From assembly GCF_020171785.1 (NCBI RefSeq), contig NZ_JAIVAE010000015.1:1-64000 (forward strand): 64,000 bases of DNA, read 5' to 3'. This DNA comes from Guptibacillus hwajinpoensis (GTDB taxonomy: Bacteria > Bacillota > Bacilli > Bacillales > Guptibacillaceae). Shown here in pieces: positions 43,601 through 51,445 of this stretch; position 1 is the stretch's first letter, and each line of letters opens with the position of its first letter. A program made the translations under genes and the position numbers. Below the pieces are notes generated by a model, which was not told where the DNA came from, ran no database searches, and saw nothing but the letters and a program-made list of their open reading frames with translations.

Positions 43601-43645
43601 TATGAAGATTTATAATAGTGTTTTTCTATTTTTAATGAAATTGAA

Positions 43646-43664
43646 TTTACTTTTTATGGTATTG
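43646..43664 (+). promoter_or_regulatory. Variant of the array 19-mer
   Basis: TTTACTTTTTATGGTATTG; the same variant recurs at 48441 (TTTACTTTTAATGGTATTA). TGGTATT resembles an extended -10. Confidence 0.35.
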
Positions 43665-43684
43665 TGGGAGGGAGAGCTTCTTCC

Positions 43685-43714
43685 ATAATCGGGCAGGATT
43701 GTTGAACAGTAAGC
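43685..43714 (+). repeat. Array boundary element, TCGGGC form
   Basis: ATAATCGGGC followed by ATTGTTGAAC; similar to 46331-46364. First such element of the array. Confidence 0.4.
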
Positions 43715-43737
43715 AATGAACATTAGGGGGGTAAAAA

Positions 43738-44064
43738 ATGGATTGGGACACATTGCCTAATTGGTTTTGGGTAATATATTACTTGTTTTTATTAACAACA
43801 TTAGGAACAACTATATACAGCGTTGTGAAAAGGAAAATGAAAGGTTTGTCAATTGTAGCTATTCTGTTCACTGTGACAGTTCCAATAATTGTCCTCATAA
43901 ATAGTATTGGTAGAGCAGAAGAAATGAATGAGTTTGAACATTTAGTTAGTCAATTACAACAAGGTGCTTTATGGTCATATTTCACAAGTATAGGTTATTT
44001 GTTTCTGTTAGTATGGTGGGTTTTGTTCCTATTCAAAAGCAGAGCAAACTACACGTCTTATTAA
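43738..44064 (+). CDS. Array gene 1: three-TM membrane protein
   Basis: 108 residues. TM helices: WFWVIYYLFLLTTLGTTIYSV, SIVAILFTVTVPIIVLINSI, YFTSIGYLFLLVWWVLFLF. Between the last two is a polar GRAEEMNEFEHLVSQLQQG. AGGGGGG RBS. Unrecognised family; comparable in size and topology to bacteriocin-immunity-type proteins, but nothing proves that role. Confidence 0.65.
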   Translation: MDWDTLPNWFWVIYYLFLLTTLGTTIYSVVKRKMKGLSIVAILFTVTVPIIVLINSIGRAEEMNEFEHLVSQLQQGALWSYFTSIGYLFLLVWWVLFLFKSRANYTSY

Positions 44065-44065
44065 A

Positions 44066-44100
44066 TTAACTCGGAGCTATTCAAAAGTAAGCGTTACCTA
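44066..44100 (+). repeat. Array boundary element, short TCGGAGC form
   Basis: TTAACTCGGAGCTATTCAAA directly after the stop of array gene 1, without the full hairpin. Confidence 0.45.
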
Positions 44101-44178
44101 TTTTTTATTCAATACCGAAACTTTATTACAGATTTATCGTAATAACAGTAAACTAAGCTTTTATGGGGAGTGAAAGAG

Positions 44179-44345
44179 ATGTTTGGAAATACACCAAAAT
44201 GTTCAAATTGCGGGGGAGAAATAAAAGGAAATGATGTTGTTTACATAAAGATGCGATATCCTGAGAGAAAAGGTATGACAGAGATAAAAGCATACTTGAA
44301 TAATGAAGTAAAGTCATTTGCGAGGAATGTTTTAACCAAAAGTAA
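44179..44345 (+). pseudogene. Array gene 2: small zinc-ribbon protein with a one-base deletion
   Basis: ATG 44179 (GGGGAG upstream) encodes MFGNTPKCSNCGGEIKGNDV and MRYPERKGMTEIKAYLNNE. After ~44308 the frame goes astray. Adding one G there restores EGKVICEECFNQK and a stop at 44343, giving a 55-residue CxxC...CxxC ribbon of a known Bacillus small-protein type. In the sequence as given, the frame runs on to 44415 with an unrelated tail. Decay or a sequence error. Confidence 0.65.
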
Positions 44346-44470
44346 TCCATTGATGTTATTCAATATAATCGGAGCTTTCCTTCATGAAAAGAAGTTCACT
44401 GCTTATTTTGGATAAAGATAAAAGTTATTTATTAAGTAATCCAATTTTTATTAAATAAGGAGATGTTTAC

Positions 44471-44761
44471 ATGACTCCAAATGAAAATATTAGGATATGC
44501 GACAAAGGGCACAAATATGATAAAAGTAGCGATTGCCCGACTTGTCCAATCTGTGAAAACGCACGAAAACCTGAAAGTGGATTCCTCTCATTACTTTCAG
44601 CACCAGCCAGAAGGGCCTTGGAAAACAATGGTATAACTTCTTTAAAGATTTTATCAACATACAGTGAAAAAGAGGTTTTGAAACTTCATGGCATGGGGCC
44701 AGCGTCATTACCAAAACTCAAATCAGCTTTGAAAGAGAAGGGATTATCTTTTAAGAAATAA
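44471..44761 (+). CDS. Array gene 3: zinc-knuckle plus RNA polymerase alpha-CTD-like protein
   Basis: 96 residues. N-terminal Cys/His cluster (ICDKGHKYDKSSDCPTCPIC), then LSAPARRALENNGITSLKIL and EVLKLHGMGPASLPKLKSAL, a helix-hairpin-helix fold like the C-terminal domain of the RNA polymerase alpha subunit. It could bind DNA or contact transcription complexes. AAGGAGA RBS. The only clearly nucleic-acid-type protein of the array. Confidence 0.75.
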   Translation: MTPNENIRICDKGHKYDKSSDCPTCPICENARKPESGFLSLLSAPARRALENNGITSLKILSTYSEKEVLKLHGMGPASLPKLKSALKEKGLSFKK

Positions 44762-44828
44762 ATTCCTTTATTCTGTATCTAGGTGTCCTTTGTAATTATT
44801 TATATTATCTTGAAATCAAGTCTTAAAC

Positions 44829-44866
44829 AATCTCGGAGCTTATCTGTAATAGGATAGGCTCCTTTA
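44829..44866 (+). terminator. Array terminator repeat A1
   Basis: GGAGCTTATCT-GTAATA-GGATAGGCTCC stem, then CCTTTAAA. Preceded by AATCTC. Confidence 0.75.
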
Positions 44867-44900
44867 AATATGGAATAAAAGATTGAGTTATGTAGGTGGG

Positions 44901-44919
44901 TTTGAAATAATTGGTATTA
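44901..44919 (+). promoter_or_regulatory. Array 19-mer P1
   Basis: TTTGAAATAATTGGTATTA, exact consensus, 35 bases after repeat A1. Confidence 0.5.
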
Positions 44920-44984
44920 GTGGTGTGCGCAGCATTGGTGAAGACTTTAATTTAGAGATATTTTAGTGAATTTGGTGGGTTAAT

Positions 44985-45047
44985 ATGAAGAACGAAAACT
45001 CAAATAAGGTTCCAAAGATATTAATATTGGAAAGAGAGGCGCTATGA
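44985..45047 (+). CDS. 20-codon ORF coupled to array gene 4
   Basis: ATG after TGGTGGG; encodes MKNENSNKVPKILILEREAL. Its TGA overlaps the ATG of the next gene (ATGA), so it may act as a coupling leader peptide, or be noise. Confidence 0.35.
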   Translation: MKNENSNKVPKILILEREAL

Positions 45048-45397
45048 AATATTTAAAATGGATTCTTTTAATAATGGCTGCATCAGCTACAGAAATGGCT
45101 ATCTGGATGAATGCAGAATGGCTACGTGCAGAAATGATTTCTTTAAACTATTACTTTTTGGGTTCTTTGGTAATTATATTAATGATTTTTGCATTAAGTG
45201 ATTCCCCTTCAAGAAAACAATACAAATTAATCTTGGGATTAACTATCACCGCTTTTGCTATTCTAACTACAGGGGCACTGAAAAACTTTGATTTCCTCCG
45301 TGAAAAAAATGCATTACTGTCTATGTTGGTAAATTTGGTCGCTTACCTCATATTCGCATTTTTTATAATAGTGAGAATGAAGAAAAAAACTAACTAA
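45044..45397 (+). CDS. Array gene 4: four-TM membrane protein
   Basis: 117 residues. TM segments WILLIMAASATEMAIWM, YYFLGSLVIILMIFAL, LILGLTITAFAILTTGAL, MLVNLVAYLIFAFFIIV. RBS GAAAGAGAGG. Short polar loops; no family recognised. Confidence 0.65.
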   Translation: MKYLKWILLIMAASATEMAIWMNAEWLRAEMISLNYYFLGSLVIILMIFALSDSPSRKQYKLILGLTITAFAILTTGALKNFDFLREKNALLSMLVNLVAYLIFAFFIIVRMKKKTN

Positions 45398-45489
45398 TTT
45401 TAAAAATGGTCTACTTTGTTTTATAAAATTTCTCTTTATATATTGAACAGTCGTTAACATATCAGAAAAAATTATTAGGGGGAATTAAA

Positions 45490-45646
45490 TTGCCTGTAGA
45501 AATTATGAAAACCGAAAAAACAGTACTTAACACCCGAACAAGTTAGAACGAAGGTTGTAGAAGATTATTCTTATAGCTATCAAGGTATTGCTCTCTCAAT
45601 GGCAAGTGTTACCATCGGTGCATTAACGTCAGTGGCTGGAAAATGA
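45490..45646 (+). pseudogene. Array gene 5: small protein broken by an extra A
   Basis: TTG 45490 (GGGGG RBS) begins MPVEIMK and then meets a stop in its frame at 45544. Removing one A from the AAAA at ~45507-45510 gives MKPKKQYLTPEQVRTKVVED, YSYSYQGIALSMASVTIGAL, TSVAGK and a stop at 45644, a 51-residue product. Unknown family; the C-terminal half is a possible TM or amphipathic helix. Confidence 0.5.
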
Positions 45647-45658
45647 CGATATTCCATT

Positions 45659-45718
45659 ATCTCGGAGCAAATACAGAATAATAAAAGGATCGCTGCTTTT
45701 TTTGAATGCAGTAATCCT
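45659..45718 (+). terminator. Array boundary element with alternative hairpin
   Basis: ATCTCGGAGC, then a different stem-loop AGGAT-CG-CTGC / GCAG-TA-ATCCT. Shares only the TCGGAGC head with repeat A. Confidence 0.55.
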
Positions 45719-45748
45719 GTTATAAATAAAAGACAATAAGGAGGCAGC

Positions 45749-46303
45749 GTGCAAACACCAACTTTTTCATTATACTGGGCACTTATTATTTATGGTGCTC
45801 TTTTAGGTTTAATCTATGTTTTCCCAAAGACAAGGCAGCTTTATAAGAAAGCATTTGATTTTAGTGTTCTGAAGAAATTTCCAACGTACCTTCTGATTTT
45901 AACAGCATTTCTGACCATATTTTTTGCAAACCTAGTAATCTTCAAGCGTCATTTATCATCAACCTTCAATTTACTTACTAGTAATTATTCACAAACACTT
46001 TTTTTAGATACCTTCGAACTAATATCACTTCTTGTTGGTAAGCTTATAATAGCTCCAGTGTTTGAAGAGTTGATGTTCAGAGTACCATTATCTATTTGGA
46101 TGAATAGACGTTTCTATTTCATCTTGGCACTATTGGGTTCCTCTATAATATTCGGAATGATGCATTCAGAGTATCCGTTATTCGGGGTCATATTAGGAAT
46201 CGTTTTTGGGAGTGTTTATGGATTAACTAAGTCTATTGTTCCTGGTATACTCGTTCACTTTCTATGGAACTTATTTTCACTCTACTATTTTAATTACATA
46301 TAG
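45749..46303 (+). CDS. Array gene 6: CPBP (CAAX/Abi) intramembrane protease
   Basis: 184 residues with about six TM helices. Motifs of the CPBP glutamic protease family: EELMFR (EExxxR, ~111), FGMMHS (FxxxH, ~142) and HFLWN (HxxxN, ~174). Family members process prenylated or lipid-like substrates or confer bacteriocin self-immunity in Gram-positives. GTG start after AAGGAGG. A truncated second copy of its 5' end lies at 48236. Confidence 0.88.
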   Translation: MQTPTFSLYWALIIYGALLGLIYVFPKTRQLYKKAFDFSVLKKFPTYLLILTAFLTIFFANLVIFKRHLSSTFNLLTSNYSQTLFLDTFELISLLVGKLIIAPVFEELMFRVPLSIWMNRRFYFILALLGSSIIFGMMHSEYPLFGVILGIVFGSVYGLTKSIVPGILVHFLWNLFSLYYFNYI

Positions 46304-46330
46304 TAGGCAATATAGGAATCAACATTTTAG

Positions 46331-46364
46331 ATGTTCAATTAAATCGGAGCCATTGTTGAATAGG
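46331..46364 (+). repeat. Array boundary element, short form
   Basis: TTCAATTAAATCGGAGCC then ATTGTTGAATAGG; outer TTCAAT/ATTGTTGAA can pair. Confidence 0.45.
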
Positions 46365-46408
46365 ATTATTCTCCCCACATAAGTTTAATTACGAAAGGGT
46401 TTATAAAA

Positions 46409-46966
46409 ATGTTTAATCCATATGATTGTATCACTGACTTTATTTTCGTTGAAACTGAAGTATCTGCAGCTGACGTCATATTAGTACCCGGTGCTAATCA
46501 TCCACAGCTAATGGAAAAGGCTTCATGGCTATATAAAAATGGAATGGCTCCATACATTCTTCCGTCAGGCGGGTACAAACCCCACGTAGGTACATCTGAG
46601 TGGGAATATCTAAGAAAGGTTGGTATTACAAACGGGGTGCCTGACGAAGTTATCCTTAAAGAAGACGAAGCTCAGCATACTTTAGAAAATGCCCGTTTTT
46701 CTTTAGAAGTATTACAGGGTAAAGGTATTAAATATGAAAAAGTTATCATTGTCTGTAAAGCAGGACATTCTCGAAGAGCATTGCTATGTTATCAGGATGC
46801 ATTTCCAAAGAACACTAGTTTTATGGTTTCTCCAGTAGAAGATCGATTCGGAATTACTAAAGAGAATTGGTTTACTACGGAAGTTGGTATAAGCAGGATT
46901 ATGACTGAGGTAGAGAAGATTGGTAAATACTTTGGAGATTTTATTCCGAAATGGGTGGGGCGATAA
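46409..46966 (+). CDS. Array gene 7: YdcF/DUF218-family protein
   Basis: 185 residues, soluble. DUF218 elements: ADVILVPGANHPQLMEKASW, ILPSGGYKPHVGTSEWEYLR, LKEDEAQHTLENARFSLEVL and IIVCKAGHSRRALLCYQDAF. In other bacteria such proteins (SanA, YdcF, ElyC) have roles in envelope metabolism and binding of nucleotide-like ligands. RBS GAAAGGGT. Followed by repeat A2. Confidence 0.85.
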   Translation: MFNPYDCITDFIFVETEVSAADVILVPGANHPQLMEKASWLYKNGMAPYILPSGGYKPHVGTSEWEYLRKVGITNGVPDEVILKEDEAQHTLENARFSLEVLQGKGIKYEKVIIVCKAGHSRRALLCYQDAFPKNTSFMVSPVEDRFGITKENWFTTEVGISRIMTEVEKIGKYFGDFIPKWVGR

Positions 46967-46989
46967 AATCTTGATACTGAGTCTTCAAA

Positions 46990-47026
46990 AACTCGGAGCT
47001 TATCTGTAATAAGATAGGCTCCTTAT
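46990..47026 (+). terminator. Array terminator repeat A2
   Basis: GGAGCTTATCT-GTAATA-AGATAGGCTCC, then TTATTTTATTT. Confidence 0.8.
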
Positions 47027-47053
47027 TTTATTTGGTTGTGTAAATGAAGTTGT

Positions 47054-47070
47054 TTTGAAATAATTGTTAG
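47054..47070 (+). promoter_or_regulatory. Array 19-mer P2 (shortened)
   Basis: TTTGAAATAATTGTTAG; diverges after TTG. Confidence 0.4.
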
Positions 47071-47116
47071 GGAGCAAATTTTGTAACCTTTTTTTCGTTA
47101 TATGGAGGGATGGATT

Positions 47117-47362
47117 TTGGAAAAAACGTTGGTTAAAACTGGTTTATATTCATTGGTTATTTCCTTTTTAATTTTATTTGCAGGGGTAAGTAGAGTGAAG
47201 TCTACAACAGATGTAAAAGGAATGACTTCAGTTGTAGAAATTACATATCCGGATTTCTTTTTTATGATTTCTCGATATTCTATTATCATTTCATTCATCA
47301 CAGTTATTTGTATATTTGCCATAATACAGTATAAGAAAAACAAACGAATAAAATCATCTTAA
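47117..47362 (+). CDS. Array gene 8: two-TM protein
   Basis: 81 residues from TTG 47117; GGAGGG lies 8-9 bases upstream. The ATG at 47102 is the codon overlapping that RBS and is unlikely. TM helices flank an extracytoplasmic stretch (VSRVKSTTDVKGMTSVVEIT): YSLVISFLILFAGV and YSIIISFITVICIFAIIQY. Basic C-terminus. Unknown family. Confidence 0.6.
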   Translation: MEKTLVKTGLYSLVISFLILFAGVSRVKSTTDVKGMTSVVEITYPDFFFMISRYSIIISFITVICIFAIIQYKKNKRIKSS

Positions 47363-47440
47363 AAGTTGGAGGTTTGCTTAAGAAAATAATTGTTGTTAAA
47401 ACGATTAGGTACAGTTGAAATTTAAAAGTGATCTTCCAGT

Positions 47441-47478
47441 ATCTCGGAGCTTATCTGTAATAAGATAGGCTCTTTTTA
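47441..47478 (+). terminator. Array terminator repeat A3
   Basis: ATCTCGGAGC, stem with AGATAGGCTC, TTTTT. Confidence 0.8.
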
Positions 47479-47506
47479 GTGAAAAAGATGGATTTATTAG
47501 CTCTGA

Positions 47507-47525
47507 TTTGAAATAATTGGTATTA
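47507..47525 (+). promoter_or_regulatory. Array 19-mer P3
   Basis: TTTGAAATAATTGGTATTA, exact consensus. Confidence 0.5.
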
Positions 47526-47585
47526 AGCATTTTGATTAAAATTAGATGCTAATCGAACTACTTTATGCTCTAGGAGGATTATTAT

Positions 47586-47783
47586 TTGAATACCAAAAAA
47601 CTTGATTTGATCATCTTATTAACCCTGACAGTTGCAGTTCCGGTTTGTACAATTCTACCGTACCTTGGAATAGTTCCGGACCTTTTACTATTCATCATCT
47701 TGCCAGTAGGAATTATCTTTTGCCTCATAGGGGTAATGGCTTCAGTTCTAAGGATACAAACCAGTGGTTGGAAACAATCATAA
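47586..47783 (+). CDS. Array gene 9: two-TM protein
   Basis: 65 residues, TTG start after AGGAGG. Helices LIILLTLTVAVPVCTILPYL and LLLFIILPVGIIFCLIGVMA. The sequence just upstream (TTTATGCTCTAGG) recurs before array gene 12. Unknown family. Confidence 0.6.
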   Translation: MNTKKLDLIILLTLTVAVPVCTILPYLGIVPDLLLFIILPVGIIFCLIGVMASVLRIQTSGWKQS

Positions 47784-47801
47784 CAAATATTAATGTTCCA
47801 T

Positions 47802-47840
47802 AATCTCGGAGCTTATCTGTAATAAGATAGGATCTTTTTT
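47802..47840 (+). terminator. Array terminator repeat A4
   Basis: AATCTCGGAGC head, same stem with GGATC instead of GGCTC, then TTTTTT. Confidence 0.75.
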
Positions 47841-47969
47841 CTGAAAGGCTTGCAACAAGATAATGAAATGATATGGATTACATAAAAGGTTGTCGATGAT
47901 TTTTTAAAAAGTATACTTAATCTATTTTATGATAATATAGAAAAAAGGGAAATTATGGAGGTGGAGAAG

Positions 47970-48155
47970 TTGAAGTGGGTACTTGGCATCGGGTTAGGTG
48001 TTGTTACAATTATTTGGTTAGCCATGGAAATAGCTACCGTGGATGATAAAGGCAAAGGCTTTGGGTCTTATTTTAAAGCATTTAAAAAGAGTTTAATTGG
48101 CGTTATTTCCTTATTCATCGTAGCAGGAATTATCTATTACGGATTGATTTACTAG
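47970..48155 (+). CDS. Array gene 10: DUF4199-like/two-TM small protein
   Basis: 61 residues from TTG 47970, with GGAGGTGG upstream. Helices KWVLGIGLGVVTIIWLAME and SLIGVISLFIVAGIIYYGLI, separated by DDKGKGFGSYFKAFKK. The family name is a guess; treat as unknown two-TM protein. Confidence 0.5.
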   Translation: MKWVLGIGLGVVTIIWLAMEIATVDDKGKGFGSYFKAFKKSLIGVISLFIVAGIIYYGLIY

Positions 48156-48235
48156 ATTTTCTAGGTAAGTAAAATATAAAAATTGGAGTAAGTAATAAGC
48201 TTTCTATGTAGGTTAAAAGACAATAAGGAGGAACC

Positions 48236-48337
48236 GTGCAAACACCTACTTTTTCATTATTCTGGGCACTTATTATTTATGGTGCTCTTTTAAGTTTAAT
48301 CTATATTTTCCTATTGGTATCTAACATTTGTTTATAA
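48236..48337 (+). pseudogene. Truncated second copy of the CPBP protease 5' end
   Basis: GTG 48236 encodes MQTPTFSLFWALIIYGALLS then LIYIFLLVSNICL and a stop. The first ~28 codons and the upstream AAAAGACAATAAGGAGG match array gene 6 (45732 onward) at about nine of ten bases; similarity stops abruptly after ~48310, followed by unrelated sequence and repeat A5. Confidence 0.8.
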
Positions 48338-48351
48338 AATGGATATTAAAC

Positions 48352-48390
48352 AATCTCGGAGCTTATCTGTAATAGGATAAGCTTCTTTTT
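48352..48390 (+). terminator. Array terminator repeat A5
   Basis: AATCTCGGAGCTTATCT, loop, GGATAAGCTTC, TTTTTT. Confidence 0.75.
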
Positions 48391-48440
48391 TGAAGACTCT
48401 TTTCGAAAAGATTGTTGATTTTAACTATAACAATGAATAA

Positions 48441-48460
48441 TTTACTTTTAATGGTATTAT
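48441..48460 (+). promoter_or_regulatory. Variant of the array 19-mer
   Basis: TTTACTTTTAATGGTATTA, same variant as 43646. Confidence 0.35.
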
Positions 48461-48473
48461 TTAAAGAGAGGCT

Positions 48474-48500
48474 TATTCAACTAACGCGACAGTTTGAGAT
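48474..48500 (+). repeat. Array boundary-like element
   Basis: TTATTCAACTAACGCGACAG followed by TTTGAG; resembles the TTCAAT...TTGTTGAA form. Confidence 0.3.
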
Positions 48501-48567
48501 ACTTTGAAAAACAAAATTGGAATAGACTTTAACTTCTAACAAAAGTGTTTTGAAGGGAGAAGAAAAA

Positions 48568-48738
48568 ATGAAAAAGGTAAAAAATTTCTTTATTGCTGGC
48601 TTACTCTTATTTTTGTTAGGAATATATTTATCTACTTTTTCATTAACCCATTGGGTAATAATTGGTACATTACTTGCAATAATTGGTGGATTTCTAATGG
48701 GTGGAAGTACATATTTTTTACCTAAATCTAAGAAGTAA
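48568..48738 (+). CDS. Array gene 11: small two-TM protein
   Basis: 56 residues from ATG 48568 (GGGAGAAG upstream). NFFIAGLLLFLLGIYLSTF and WVIIGTLLAIIGGFLMGGS, ending KSKK. Unknown. Confidence 0.55.
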   Translation: MKKVKNFFIAGLLLFLLGIYLSTFSLTHWVIIGTLLAIIGGFLMGGSTYFLPKSKK

Positions 48739-48801
48739 ACATCCTTAAATGTACCTATTCTTCAAGTTAAGGTTGTCTTTTCTCATACCATTGATCCCAT
48801 T

Positions 48802-48836
48802 GTTCCGTTAAATCGGAGCAATAGTTTAAAAGAGTG
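48802..48836 (+). repeat. Array boundary element, short form
   Basis: GTTAAATCGGAGCAATAGTT followed by TAAAAGAG; no full hairpin. Confidence 0.4.
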
Positions 48837-48893
48837 TTTGCTTTATGCTCCAGGGTTGCAGTTATTTGAACATTAAAGAGAAAGGAATTGATA

Positions 48894-49352
48894 GTGATTC
48901 GTTCAATATTTTCTATAGTAAGTTTATGCTGTATCTTTTTGTTGACCGCCTGTATAGGGGAGGATTACGATTTCACTCCTCCAACAATGACAGTTTGGTA
49001 CCATCATCTAAACGACTATGATTCATATGAGCTTAAAGAGGCTTCCGTGAATTGGGAGGGTCCTAATGAGGAATACAAAAAGACTGTTGTTGATTTTCAA
49101 TCATTAGGAATCGAACAGAATCAAATTAAGGTCAATGCTGGTTCAGAGGGAAACCTAGAATTAGAACATTCTGATTTTCAATTAGAAGAGTTTCAAGTAT
49201 CTCTGTGGCAAAACAATGAAGAGATTGAATTGCCTGTAAATAAATCTAGTGGTTTTCAATTTCCCGATTCAAAAGGTAATTATATCTTAGAAGTGAATCT
49301 GTCTTCTGATATGGGAGATGTTCAATATGTGGGTAACATCGATCTAAATTAA
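48894..49352 (+). CDS. Array gene 12: secreted lipoprotein
   Basis: 152 residues. Signal peptide IRSIFSIVSLCCIFLLTAC with lipobox LTAC, then an all-beta-like acidic domain (MTVWYHHLNDYDSYELKEAS ... VSLWQNNEEIELPV ... SSDMGDVQYVGNIDLN). GTG 48894 has AAAGGA 8 bases upstream. Unknown family. It is the only obvious exported non-membrane protein of the array. Confidence 0.7.
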   Translation: MIRSIFSIVSLCCIFLLTACIGEDYDFTPPTMTVWYHHLNDYDSYELKEASVNWEGPNEEYKKTVVDFQSLGIEQNQIKVNAGSEGNLELEHSDFQLEEFQVSLWQNNEEIELPVNKSSGFQFPDSKGNYILEVNLSSDMGDVQYVGNIDLN

Positions 49353-49403
49353 CACTAATTTAGGGTGAATTCTAGAATTTATCCAGATCCCAAGTCTTCT
49401 GGT

Positions 49404-49442
49404 TTATCGGAGCTTATCTGTAATAAGGTAAGTTCCTATTTT
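49404..49442 (+). terminator. Array terminator repeat A6 (diverged)
   Basis: TTATCGGAGCTTATCTG, loop, AAGGTAAGTTCC, then TATTTT. Confidence 0.7.
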
Positions 49443-49473
49443 AATGATGTAAGGATTGAATTACACATGATAA

Positions 49474-49492
49474 TTTGAAATTATTGGTATTA
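49474..49492 (+). promoter_or_regulatory. Array 19-mer P4
   Basis: TTTGAAATTATTGGTATTA, one mismatch. Confidence 0.5.
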
Positions 49493-49535
49493 AATACAGG
49501 CTAATTTATTTGAGCAGAGATTAAGGAGGTAATAT

Positions 49536-49715
49536 ATGAGTCTGAAAATAAAGGTTTTCTTTCTGATTCTTTTACCACTTTTATTAATAACATTGAGTAT
49601 TTTGAAGTTTTCAGGAAACCTGAACTCAATAACAGGGTTAATAGTAGTCCTACTATGCGCTCTATGCGGGTTAGCGGTTAATAGATCTATTAAAAAAAAT
49701 AAAAACAATAATTAA
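49536..49715 (+). CDS. Array gene 13: 59-residue two-TM protein
   Basis: ATG 49536 with AAGGAGG 7 bases upstream. Helices VFFLILLPLLLITLSILKF and GLIVVLLCALCGLAV, ending in a poly-Lys/Asn tail (NRSIKKNKNNN). Unknown. Confidence 0.6.
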   Translation: MSLKIKVFFLILLPLLLITLSILKFSGNLNSITGLIVVLLCALCGLAVNRSIKKNKNNN

Positions 49716-49742
49716 ACTCAAATTGTAGTTTTCTTTCTTCCA

Positions 49743-49780
49743 TAATCTCGGAGCTTATCTTTAATAAGATAGGCTCCTTA
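49743..49780 (+). terminator. Array terminator repeat A7
   Basis: TAATCTCGGAGCTTATCT, TTAATA loop, AGATAGGCTCC, TTATTG. Confidence 0.75.
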
Positions 49781-49813
49781 TTGTGAAATGAAAGATGGAA
49801 TTATTAGATGAAT

Positions 49814-49832
49814 TTTGAAATAATTGGTATTG
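49814..49832 (+). promoter_or_regulatory. Array 19-mer P5
   Basis: TTTGAAATAATTGGTATTG, one mismatch at the last base. Confidence 0.5.
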
Positions 49833-49907
49833 ACGAGTAGAACAGGATTTTAAAGAGGGTAGTATCTGTTCAAACAACAATTGGGAAATCTACTAGAGGT
49901 GATATTT

Positions 49908-50111
49908 ATGATTGGTATATTAGAGCTTATATTTCAAGTATCAGGAGTTGTGTTGCTCATATGTGCAATTTATTATTATTTTCATTTTAAGAAAATCAAA
50001 CGGAAAAGGAAACTGAGTCTAGTTGAGTTAACAGTTTACGCTGTAACTCAAATTGCATTTCTTCTTTTAGGAAGCAGCTTTTTACTACTTCTATTGGATA
50101 AAAATTATTAA
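49908..50111 (+). CDS. Array gene 14: two-TM protein
   Basis: 67 residues from ATG 49908 (GAGGTGAT). ILELIFQVSGVVLLICAIYY, basic loop KKIKRKRK, then LTVYAVTQIAFLLLGSSFLL. Unknown family; last gene of the array. Confidence 0.6.
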   Translation: MIGILELIFQVSGVVLLICAIYYYFHFKKIKRKRKLSLVELTVYAVTQIAFLLLGSSFLLLLLDKNY

Positions 50112-50112
50112 A

Positions 50113-50171
50113 CAATCTCGGAGCGATTATTAAATTAATAAGTGAACCTTTCAACAAAGGTTCCTTTTTTA
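50113..50171 (+). terminator. Last array element and terminator
   Basis: AATCTCGGAGC head at 50115, then a different hairpin GAACCTTT-CAAC-AAAGGTTC followed by CTTTTTTATTT. Marks the right end of the array. Confidence 0.75.
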
Positions 50172-50204: not shown

Positions 50205-51203
50205 TTACTGACCTATTAACGGAAACGTTCTGCTTTCTTTCAACGTATCATTCATGATTTCAACTTCCCAAGCATGAAAGTCAAGTGCCGCCAATTGAAT
50301 TGCGTTCTCAAAAACAACGCGATCTGCTTCTGTTACTATTTCTTCATCCATTTTGTATTGCACCGTAGCAACACTATTTTTAATGGATGAATCAAGAATT
50401 TCTATCCCTTCAACAATGGCTGACGAATAAAACGCATCAGCATAATCTATTGAACTCATTGCTTCTATTGTCTCTGGGAAAGAGAGTAGCTCATCGTTTT
50501 CATTTACTACTTGCTCCTCTAACTCGCCACCAGGCAGATAGAAGGTTTTCCCTAATTCTTCGTCATAAATCGTATAGTAGCCGCGTGTTAAACCTCTTTC
50601 TTCTTTAACAGCCACAGATTCATCGACTGATCTTTCAGCCAATATTATACCCTTTTCACCATTAGGATTTAAAAATGTAATTTCTTTCACTCCATACAGA
50701 TCACTGATCCCAAATAACGCCTCGAAGAATAAATTGCTTTGCGCAGAGGTTGCTGCTAAAGCATTTCCATCTTTATTGAAGTGGATTAGTAAATTGGGCC
50801 ATTCAAGTGATAGATCAGCATATGAATTTAGTATATCCTGCTCAGACGGATCATTACTGAATAGTGACGTTTCTAAGCGTTTTTCAGGTGAAAGTGCTTG
50901 CTCTTCTTCCTCATCACGCTGTATCGTGTATGCCGTGTAAAAATTATTTTCATAATCGAATAAGTGAGTATTAATAAAATAATTAGGATTTTTTTGCTCC
51001 CCGCCATAAACGTCTGTTTTGTTCTCATCAGCATTAAACGTTTCGGCTTTATCTGAAGGTTCCATGTTAGCGCCGTTGTCTTCTGCACTACCATCGTTTT
51101 CTACCGATTCCATCCTTTCATTTTCACTAGACTCAGAAGTCTGCGAATTTACCTTATCCTCTGAGCTTTGACATCCAGCAATTAAAAGAGCAATTAGTAA
51201 CAC
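50205..51203 (-). CDS. Lipoprotein with frameshifted start
   Basis: The frame begins at GTG 51203 with MLLIALLIAGCQSS, a lipobox (IAGC) lacking the basic N-region. The true start is visible further upstream: GGAGG (51239-51243), 9 bases, ATG at 51229, but ATG-GAAAAAAGACG is out of frame by one. Adding an A to the A6 run (51220-51225) gives MEKKTKLAGVLLIALLIAGC in frame. The mature part has an acidic Ser/Glu linker, then a globular domain repeated in style of sporulation/stress lipoproteins (GerM-like YKMDEEIVTEADRVVFENAI). GerM assignment is tentative. Confidence 0.6.
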   Translation of the reverse strand: MLLIALLIAGCQSSEDKVNSQTSESSENERMESVENDGSAEDNGANMEPSDKAETFNADENKTDVYGGEQKNPNYFINTHLFDYENNFYTAYTIQRDEEEEQALSPEKRLETSLFSNDPSEQDILNSYADLSLEWPNLLIHFNKDGNALAATSAQSNLFFEALFGISDLYGVKEITFLNPNGEKGIILAERSVDESVAVKEERGLTRGYYTIYDEELGKTFYLPGGELEEQVVNENDELLSFPETIEAMSSIDYADAFYSSAIVEGIEILDSSIKNSVATVQYKMDEEIVTEADRVVFENAIQLAALDFHAWEVEIMNDTLKESRTFPLIGQ

Positions 51204-51445
51204 CCCTGCTAGTTTCGTCTTTTTTCCATTTTTTTACGCCTCCTTAACCCATATATACCCCCTAAGTAGTTTCTAAACAGTTATTTTTGGTTATTTATAT
51301 TTATTTTTCGAAATATCTTTCAGCTGAATAGAGACTAAAAATGAGGTGGTAAAAAAATCCTAAATGTGCTCTTTTGAGTTTTGAGATCGAGTTACGGGGT
51401 ACATTCCTACATGTAACACAATAACTGACGAAGGAGTTTTTTTAG

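Follow-up and report, generated by a model that had tools for sequence, protein, structure and literature searches.

Here we report a cassette array in the genome of Guptibacillus hwajinpoensis, found in the first 64,000 nucleotides (nt) of contig NZ_JAIVAE010000015.1 (assembly GCF_020171785.1), a stretch referred to below as the window. In a block of 6.4 kb (43691-50124), short plus-strand genes alternate with copies of the heptamer TCGGAGC. We interpret the block as an integron-like mobile cassette array whose units are exchanged at TCGGAGC, most likely by a XerA-like recombinase, and assign this reading a probability of about 0.85. A cassette would extend from one TCGGAGC core to the next, a site with the core GGGCAG beside the chromosomal leader would mark the start of the array, and a XerA-like recombinase of 280 amino acids (aa) would excise cassettes, presumably as circles, and reinsert them at other sites. 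The arrays of the window strain are probably frozen unless helped in trans, because its recombinase gene has been deleted. A preliminary description of the same sequence, which had interpreted the block as genes joined by a repeated terminator module, is supported in part.

Recombination sites and cassette exchange

The window contains 14 copies of TCGGAGC, compared with 4.18 expected (none of 100 shuffled sequences reached 14). Thirteen lie on the plus strand between 44071 and 50124, and the rest of the window outside the array gave no match to the TCGGAGC site matrix (threshold 15). The long form of the site is a 61-nt repeat with a hairpin, present in seven copies that are 64-85% identical to the reference copy; they correspond in number and place to the seven near-identical hairpins of the preliminary description. 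Six of them fold as hairpins of 11-12 bp (z -2.58 to -5.46); in the seventh, at 47802, the stem is interrupted (z -0.57). The sites listed at that stage were real, and the list lacked the core at 44369 and the GGGCAG head site at 43691.

Fourteen genomes of the genus (G000, the genome of the window strain, to G013) and one of another genus (G014) were compared. BLAST with the hairpin module gave at least 26 matches in G000 (40 of 54 candidates scored), all of which fall in five clusters, so that the module is not a terminator scattered over the genome, an outcome that had been raised as a challenge to the cassette idea. A genome-wide search with a bare 8-mer (51 forward and 59 reverse matches) was uninformative. 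A site model built from sequence only (R1; 41 of 46 own-genome sites) detected sites in 12 of the 14 genus genomes and none in G001, G012 or G014; its per-genome counts are lower bounds (150 candidates scored per genome). The 44 regions taken from its cut-off list for these 12 genomes, not all of which are arrays, were scanned with the site matrix and held 554 sites on one strand and a single site on the opposite strand; the core was exactly TCGGAGC in 484 of the 554.

The site spans about 33 bp and consists of the 7-nt core between two imperfectly inverted 13-nt arms, and the dyad signal of its matrix reaches its maximum precisely at the core midpoint (2.82 versus 1.37 for the next-best centre). 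Among 339 non-redundant cassettes, there was little fixed-position conservation beyond about -13 to +21 (weakly at -20, -18 and +23 to +33) and none between -110 and about -20. No conserved second half-site was found in the 110 nt upstream or the 140 nt downstream of the core, which lacks GTT. This shape fits a simple double-stranded core site of a tyrosine recombinase, with one enzyme probably acting on both arms, and not an attC site.

Cassettes were delimited at the cores after site matches no more than 60 nt apart had been merged and intervals of 4 kb or more excluded. This yielded 495 cassettes under 4 kb (median 658 bp) and 282 homologous pairs (identity over 70%, coverage over 80%). Both neighbours differed in 178 pairs, one was shared in 8 and both in 2; at least one neighbour was unknown in 94. 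Breakpoints were profiled with one pair from each of 59 families, at 90% identity or more and with different neighbours on both sides. At the 5' end, identity rose from 0.54 one base before the core to 0.98 at the first core base; at the 3' end, it fell from 1.00 at the last core base to 0.34 one base further on. Identity thus switches at the edges of the 7-mer, which places the exchange at the core. Some neighbours that are adjacent in one array stand two or three cassettes apart in another, a pattern that insertion or loss of units would produce, and the traffic looks recent, because 51 between-species pairs are at least 97% identical. A block of four cassettes at the recombinase end is common to G010 and G003, a hint that this end is the older end of the array.

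Comparative sequence analysis establishes the mobility of the units, the exact exchange point, the symmetry of the site and the single orientation of the arrays, and it is nearly certain that these are site-specifically exchanged cassettes. Gain and loss of genes as units at shared spacers, as originally suggested, is borne out by homologous cassettes that stand between different neighbours and by the break of identity at the core; relatives differ unit by unit rather than having the same genes in the same order. Of the mechanisms considered at that stage, the integron-like, site-specific one is favoured. The claim that spacers are better conserved than genes is true only inside a single array; comparison between species shows conservation of the cassettes in full, with up to 100% identity.

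The hairpin and a 19-mer sit at the 5' end of the cassette, and the first strand of the hairpin comprises most of the core and the right arm. TTGAGT precedes the 19-mer, which ends in TGGTATTA and includes AATAAT 17 nt after TTGAGT. Among the 339 non-redundant cassettes, the long hairpin form was present in 70, the 19-mer in 83 and both in only 51; the preliminary description had regarded the two together as the exchange module, a role that belongs instead to the short TCGGAGC site it had also listed. The hairpin may act as terminator of the preceding unit and TTGAGT-17-AATAAT as promoter for the unit's own gene, and the 51 cassettes with both would be self-contained because they bring a terminator-like hairpin and a promoter-like element of their own. 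Integron cassettes are generally promoterless and rely on a platform promoter (PMC11014356). A known RNA family was rejected, as two Rfam matches were both far below their gathering scores.

The longest open reading frame (ORF) of at least 50 aa runs in the array direction in 299 of the 339 cassettes and in the opposite direction in 31, and is absent from 9. A membrane segment was predicted by hydropathy in 157 of 330 cassette ORFs. A cargo scan of 105 of the 210 referenced cassette proteins (90-330 aa, array direction, recombinase excluded) identified, among the 25 of 66 families listed, GNAT acetyltransferases (10), alpha/beta hydrolases (6), GrpB, phosphotransferases and NUDIX (3 each), and, among the families with 2 members, GyrI-like and integron-associated Cass2 proteins. 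The sampled cargo is mixed, and the orphan immunity array considered earlier does not serve as a general description. Two further candidates were discarded: a defence island (five PADLOC families among the 105 proteins) and a phage origin (five phage records with E-values up to 1e-40, all below 38% identity).

Head site and candidate recombinase

Sites with the same arms and the core GGGCAG number 16 in the 44 genus regions, and 15 of the 16 precede the first TCGGAGC of their region (15 of 44 regions). Leader-side homology with the window ends at 43696, the last base of GGGCAG, in G005 and G009, at 43699 in G008, and at 43706 in G007 and G011. The same or nearly the same leader follows the orthologous osmoprotectant gene in G005, G007, G008, G009, G011 and G013. 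The head cassette of the window also heads the array on contig C6 of G000 (99% identity over 387 nt, with a different left arm). The head site stands at the array start, where it may act as an attI-like anchor, and we give about even odds to its being the entry point. A cassette found behind GGGCAG in one place and behind TCGGAGC in another would locate the crossover inside the core, but no clear case was seen. The orthologous flanking gene is present without an array in G004; in G001, G002, G010 and G012, the nearest flanking gene has 73-77% DNA identity and may be a second copy that other genomes also have. Comparison with empty loci is weak because orthology in these four genomes is unsure.

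A search of the Phage_integrase proteins of the genus revealed one 280-aa type that adjoins arrays. A full copy is present in 8 of the 14 genomes, and sites adjoin the gene in seven: they lie upstream of it and in the same direction in G004, G007, G009, G010 and G011, and on both sides in G002 and G012 (in G012 with GGGAGC or TGGAGC cores, at a lower threshold). The G013 copy lies close to a contig end, with 0.9 kb of sequence left upstream, and the 11.3 kb examined around it contain no site. A linked recombinase, which the preliminary description suggested looking for, exists intact elsewhere in the genus and in the window strain only as a fossil: at the syntenic C6 locus of G000 the gene is deleted except for about its last nine codons. 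A separate deletion in G008 left residues 248-280, and G003 has only 20 residues, at two contig ends. The fossils indicate that G000 and G008 once had the gene.

The protein matches PF00589 (1.6e-38), and its closest solved structure by sequence is the XerC-like 4a8e. Residues R137, H228, R231, H254 and Y263 are invariant in 18 sequences and K161 is conserved in at least 90%; we presume these to be the catalytic R, K, H, R, H and Y. A structure model reached middling confidence (pLDDT 78.2, pTM 0.54). The nearest NCBIfam model is NF040815 (219.1 and 217.5 bits, just below the cut-off of 220), and scores were far below the NCBIfam cut-offs for XerC and XerD. The integron integrase model TIGR02249 scored 94.8 and 97.2 bits against a cut-off of 265, and PRK15417 scored 56.8 and 63.6 against 435. 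The TIGR02249 alignments of two homologous proteins skip about 39 profile positions between two matched stretches, presumably the place of the I2 insert of IntI, which the recombinase seems to lack. I2 comprises about 20 residues and reportedly has not been identified elsewhere (PMC4792948). The association of the gene with the sites and its deletion fossil are evident in the genomes themselves, and the recombinase probably carries out the exchange of cassettes.

A search with the recombinase protein gave 49 loci, 42 of them outside the genus and mostly in Bacillaceae. Around the gene in other genera, the same arms flank a 6-nt core (333 matches, versus 11 in shuffled sequence that preserved base composition only); the leading cores, mostly GGGNNN, are GGGCGC, GGGCCA, GGGGGC, GGGCAG and GGGTGC. 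Sites with a GGR core numbered 257 in 700 kb around these recombinases, compared with none in 100 kb of Bacillaceae plasmid sequence and none in 126 kb of genus recombinase loci (L026-L061, 36 loci of about 3.5 kb, including two, L060 and L061, that hold the cassette recombinase). Of the 42 loci outside the genus, 38 were scored for adjoining sites (L114, L119, L120 and L121 left out): 24 have one upstream of the gene and 20 have one downstream. A core-masked scan gave 140 forward and 163 reverse matches and says nothing on orientation. Of 197 alignments, 37 have a left and 36 a right homology breakpoint that coincides with a site in both loci, and many of these breakpoints belong to the recombinase unit; these comparisons weakly suggest that cassettes are mobile in other genera as well. 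Plasmid relatives of the recombinase amount to nine records with 55-64% identity.

In L085, L099 and further other-genus loci, sites are often paired 42-46 bp apart, with a GGGCGC or GGGGGC core followed by GGGCCA, GGGCAG or similar. This arrangement suggests a tail plus a head between units.

Alternatives and relation to known systems

It is improbable that the cassettes are mobilised by the host's XerC and XerD, in the manner of the dif (pdif) modules of Acinetobacter, with the XerA-like gene as a passenger. This would account for the persistence of arrays in genomes without an intact gene, and each of the 14 genomes has two further Xer-sized recombinases, presumably XerC and XerD. However, the 554 array sites share a median of 13 of 28 identities with dif, the same as random 50-mers, and what we take to be the Bacillus-type dif is matched exactly once, at G000 C3:163038-163065. 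The mirrored arms suggest a single enzyme instead of a pair, sites flank the XerA-like gene in many loci of other genera, the 36 tyrosine-recombinase loci of the genus are free of GG-core sites, and the fossils show that G000 and G008 formerly carried the gene.

Still less likely is a true but diverged integron, with the recombinase as IntI and the sites as attC. The name of NF040815, 'tyrosine recombinase/integron integrase', and cargo that overlaps integron cargo, including the two Cass2 proteins among 105, speak for it. Against it stand the TIGR02249 score and the skipped profile positions, a core without the GTT of attC, the missing second half-site, and the placement of the recombinase downstream of the sites or between them. 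Shuffling of genes by RecA between repeated terminators, which had been proposed as the other possible mechanism and for which the 61-nt long-form repeats might be cited, is the least credible of all. Pairs of sites from the same genome match exactly across the core for a median of only 9 nt (25 nt or more in just 1.6% of sampled pairs), which is too short for homologous recombination. Short-form sites also take part in exchange, and the position of the breakpoint at the 7-mer does not vary.

Several observations weigh against exchange at TCGGAGC by the XerA-like enzyme. The evidence for recombination is comparative throughout, and 244 of the 495 cassettes have no homologue in the set. Arrays occur in G000, G005, G006 and G008 without an intact recombinase gene; in these, and in G003 with just 20 residues at two contig ends, XerCD or another enzyme may act. 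The core at the leader varies (GGGCAG in G000, G008 and G011, AGGGCAG in G007, GTGCAG in G005, GGGAAG in G009 and G013), and simple exchange between matching overlaps does not account for the presence of two core types within an array. Outside the genus, 3 of the 38 loci have fewer than three sites, and two inspected plasmid records hold only four GGR-core sites in 37 kb.

The arrays resemble chromosomal integrons and clusters of attC sites lacking integrases (CALINs) in their one-directional series of small, mostly unrelated cassettes, the short exchange site, the Xer-related tyrosine recombinase, the distinct head site, the existence of enzyme-less clusters, and cargo such as acetyltransferases, NUDIX and Cass2. 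They differ from integrons in a recombinase that is not IntI, in a compact symmetric 33-bp site built on a TCGGAGC or GGGNNN core where integrons have a folded attC with GTT, in cassettes that in some cases have their own hairpin and promoter-like element, in the Bacillaceae host clade, and in an enzyme gene that, in five of the seven genomes with adjoining sites, stands at the far end of the array and reads the same way. The pdif modules likewise consist of genes bounded by Xer-type sites, and the core of dif has 6 nt, as do the other-genus cores; unlike them, the present sites are unrelated to the host dif and have symmetric arms, their own recombinase, and long chromosomal arrays of one orientation. 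Compared with XerA and XerC-like recombinases such as 4a8e, the gene is distinguished by its place in cassette arrays. The system works like an integron yet departs from one in the IntI family, the I2 insert and the attC architecture, and it is not a pdif system.

We consider it probable that Bacillaceae possess their own cassette-capture system parallel to integrons, with a XerA-like enzyme, double-stranded 13-6/7-13 sites, one-directional arrays led by a head site, and some cassettes with their own terminator and promoter, in which arms and enzyme are conserved across genera and cores differ. The open-access papers searched yielded no description of such arrays in Bacillaceae; subscription papers and preprints lay outside the search, and priority is uncertain. 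Integrons are almost unknown in Firmicutes: IntegronFinder 2.0 (PMC9024848) reports one complete integron and a few integrase-less clusters there, although this phylum made up 22% of the genomes searched. If real, the system would be a living example of double-stranded cassette recombination without the single-strand specialisation of integrons and would test how cassette capture can run without single-stranded attC sites; it could account for part of the small-gene accessory content of environmental Bacillaceae, and its simple double-stranded site might become a Gram-positive tool.

Layout of the window array

The elements of the array, all on the plus strand, are as follows.

43644..43664 (+): conserved leader AATTTACTTTTTATGGTATTG just before the array; possible extended -10 promoter
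43677..43710 (+): site at the head of the array, with GGGCAG core 43691-43696 between two arms; possible attI-like anchor
43691..44077 (+): head cassette, GGGCAG to TCGGAGC; ORF 43738-44064, membrane protein
44058..44090 (+): recombination site 1, core 44071-44077
44071..44375 (+): cassette 1; ORF 44170-44415 extends through site 2 and may be a remnant or a fusion
44356..44388 (+): recombination site 2, core 44369-44375; right arm weak
44369..44839 (+): cassette 2; ORF 44471-44761, cysteine-rich start, RNA polymerase alpha-CTD / HHH (both Pfam matches below cut-off)
44820..44852 (+): recombination site 3, core 44833-44839; long form, hairpin
44833..45668 (+): cassette 3; ORF 45044-45397, membrane protein; 97% in G000 C8, 89-91% in G009 and two G007 arrays
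45649..45681 (+): recombination site 4, core 45662-45668
45662..46350 (+): cassette 4; ORF 45749-46303, CPBP/Rce1-like membrane protease (Pfam PF02517, 6.1e-16)
46331..46363 (+): recombination site 5, core 46344-46350; clear dyad
46344..46999 (+): cassette 5; ORF 46409-46966, DUF218 (Pfam PF02698, 4.9e-20); 99% identical cassette in G009
46980..47012 (+): recombination site 6, core 46993-46999; long form
46993..47450 (+): cassette 6; ORF 47102-47362, membrane protein; 88% identical cassette in G007
47431..47463 (+): recombination site 7, core 47444-47450; long form
47444..47812 (+): cassette 7; ORF 47586-47783, membrane protein
47793..47825 (+): recombination site 8, core 47806-47812; long form, broken stem
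47806..48362 (+): cassette 8; ORF 47955-48155 and truncated CPBP copy 48236-48337
48343..48375 (+): recombination site 9, core 48356-48362; long form
48356..48819 (+): cassette 9; ORF 48550-48738; second leader-like copy at 48439
48800..48832 (+): recombination site 10, core 48813-48819
48813..49413 (+): cassette 10; ORF 48888-49352, lipoprotein-like, weak cupredoxin-like Pfam match; 97% identical cassette in G002
49394..49426 (+): recombination site 11, core 49407-49413; long form
49407..49754 (+): cassette 11; ORF 49536-49715; 78% identical cassette in G003
49735..49767 (+): recombination site 12, core 49748-49754; long form
49748..50124 (+): cassette 12; ORF 49881-50111; 92% identical cassette in G004
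50105..50137 (+): last recombination site, core 50118-50124

Seven of the 12 cassettes bounded by TCGGAGC on both sides have relatives elsewhere. Cassette 7 has nine homologues in six other genomes (85-100% identity), including the 100% identical copy in another species (G011), whose neighbours differ. A Pfam scan of ten array proteins gave matches above cut-off only for the CPBP/Rce1-like protease and the DUF218 protein; the other eight had weak or no matches. Cassette 8 includes a 98-nt repeat that is 94% identical to the start of the CPBP gene. The site at 44369 may lie within coding sequence, as it is spanned by ORF 44170-44415.

In cassette 9, the second leader copy (AATTTACTTTTAATGGTATT, 48439-48500) is followed by an arm-like stretch and a GCGACAG core; it is perhaps the decayed head of another array that was fused there. 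To the right of the array, the flank common to G007 and G009 picks up again at 51339. Between the array and this shared flank lies a minus-strand lipoprotein-like gene (50205-51203), which has no match in the 13 other genus genomes. Two ORFs in an array region of G007 (C1:2760001-2794000; L064, L065) look, in our judgement, like group II intron reverse transcriptases; some group II introns target integron sites and terminators.

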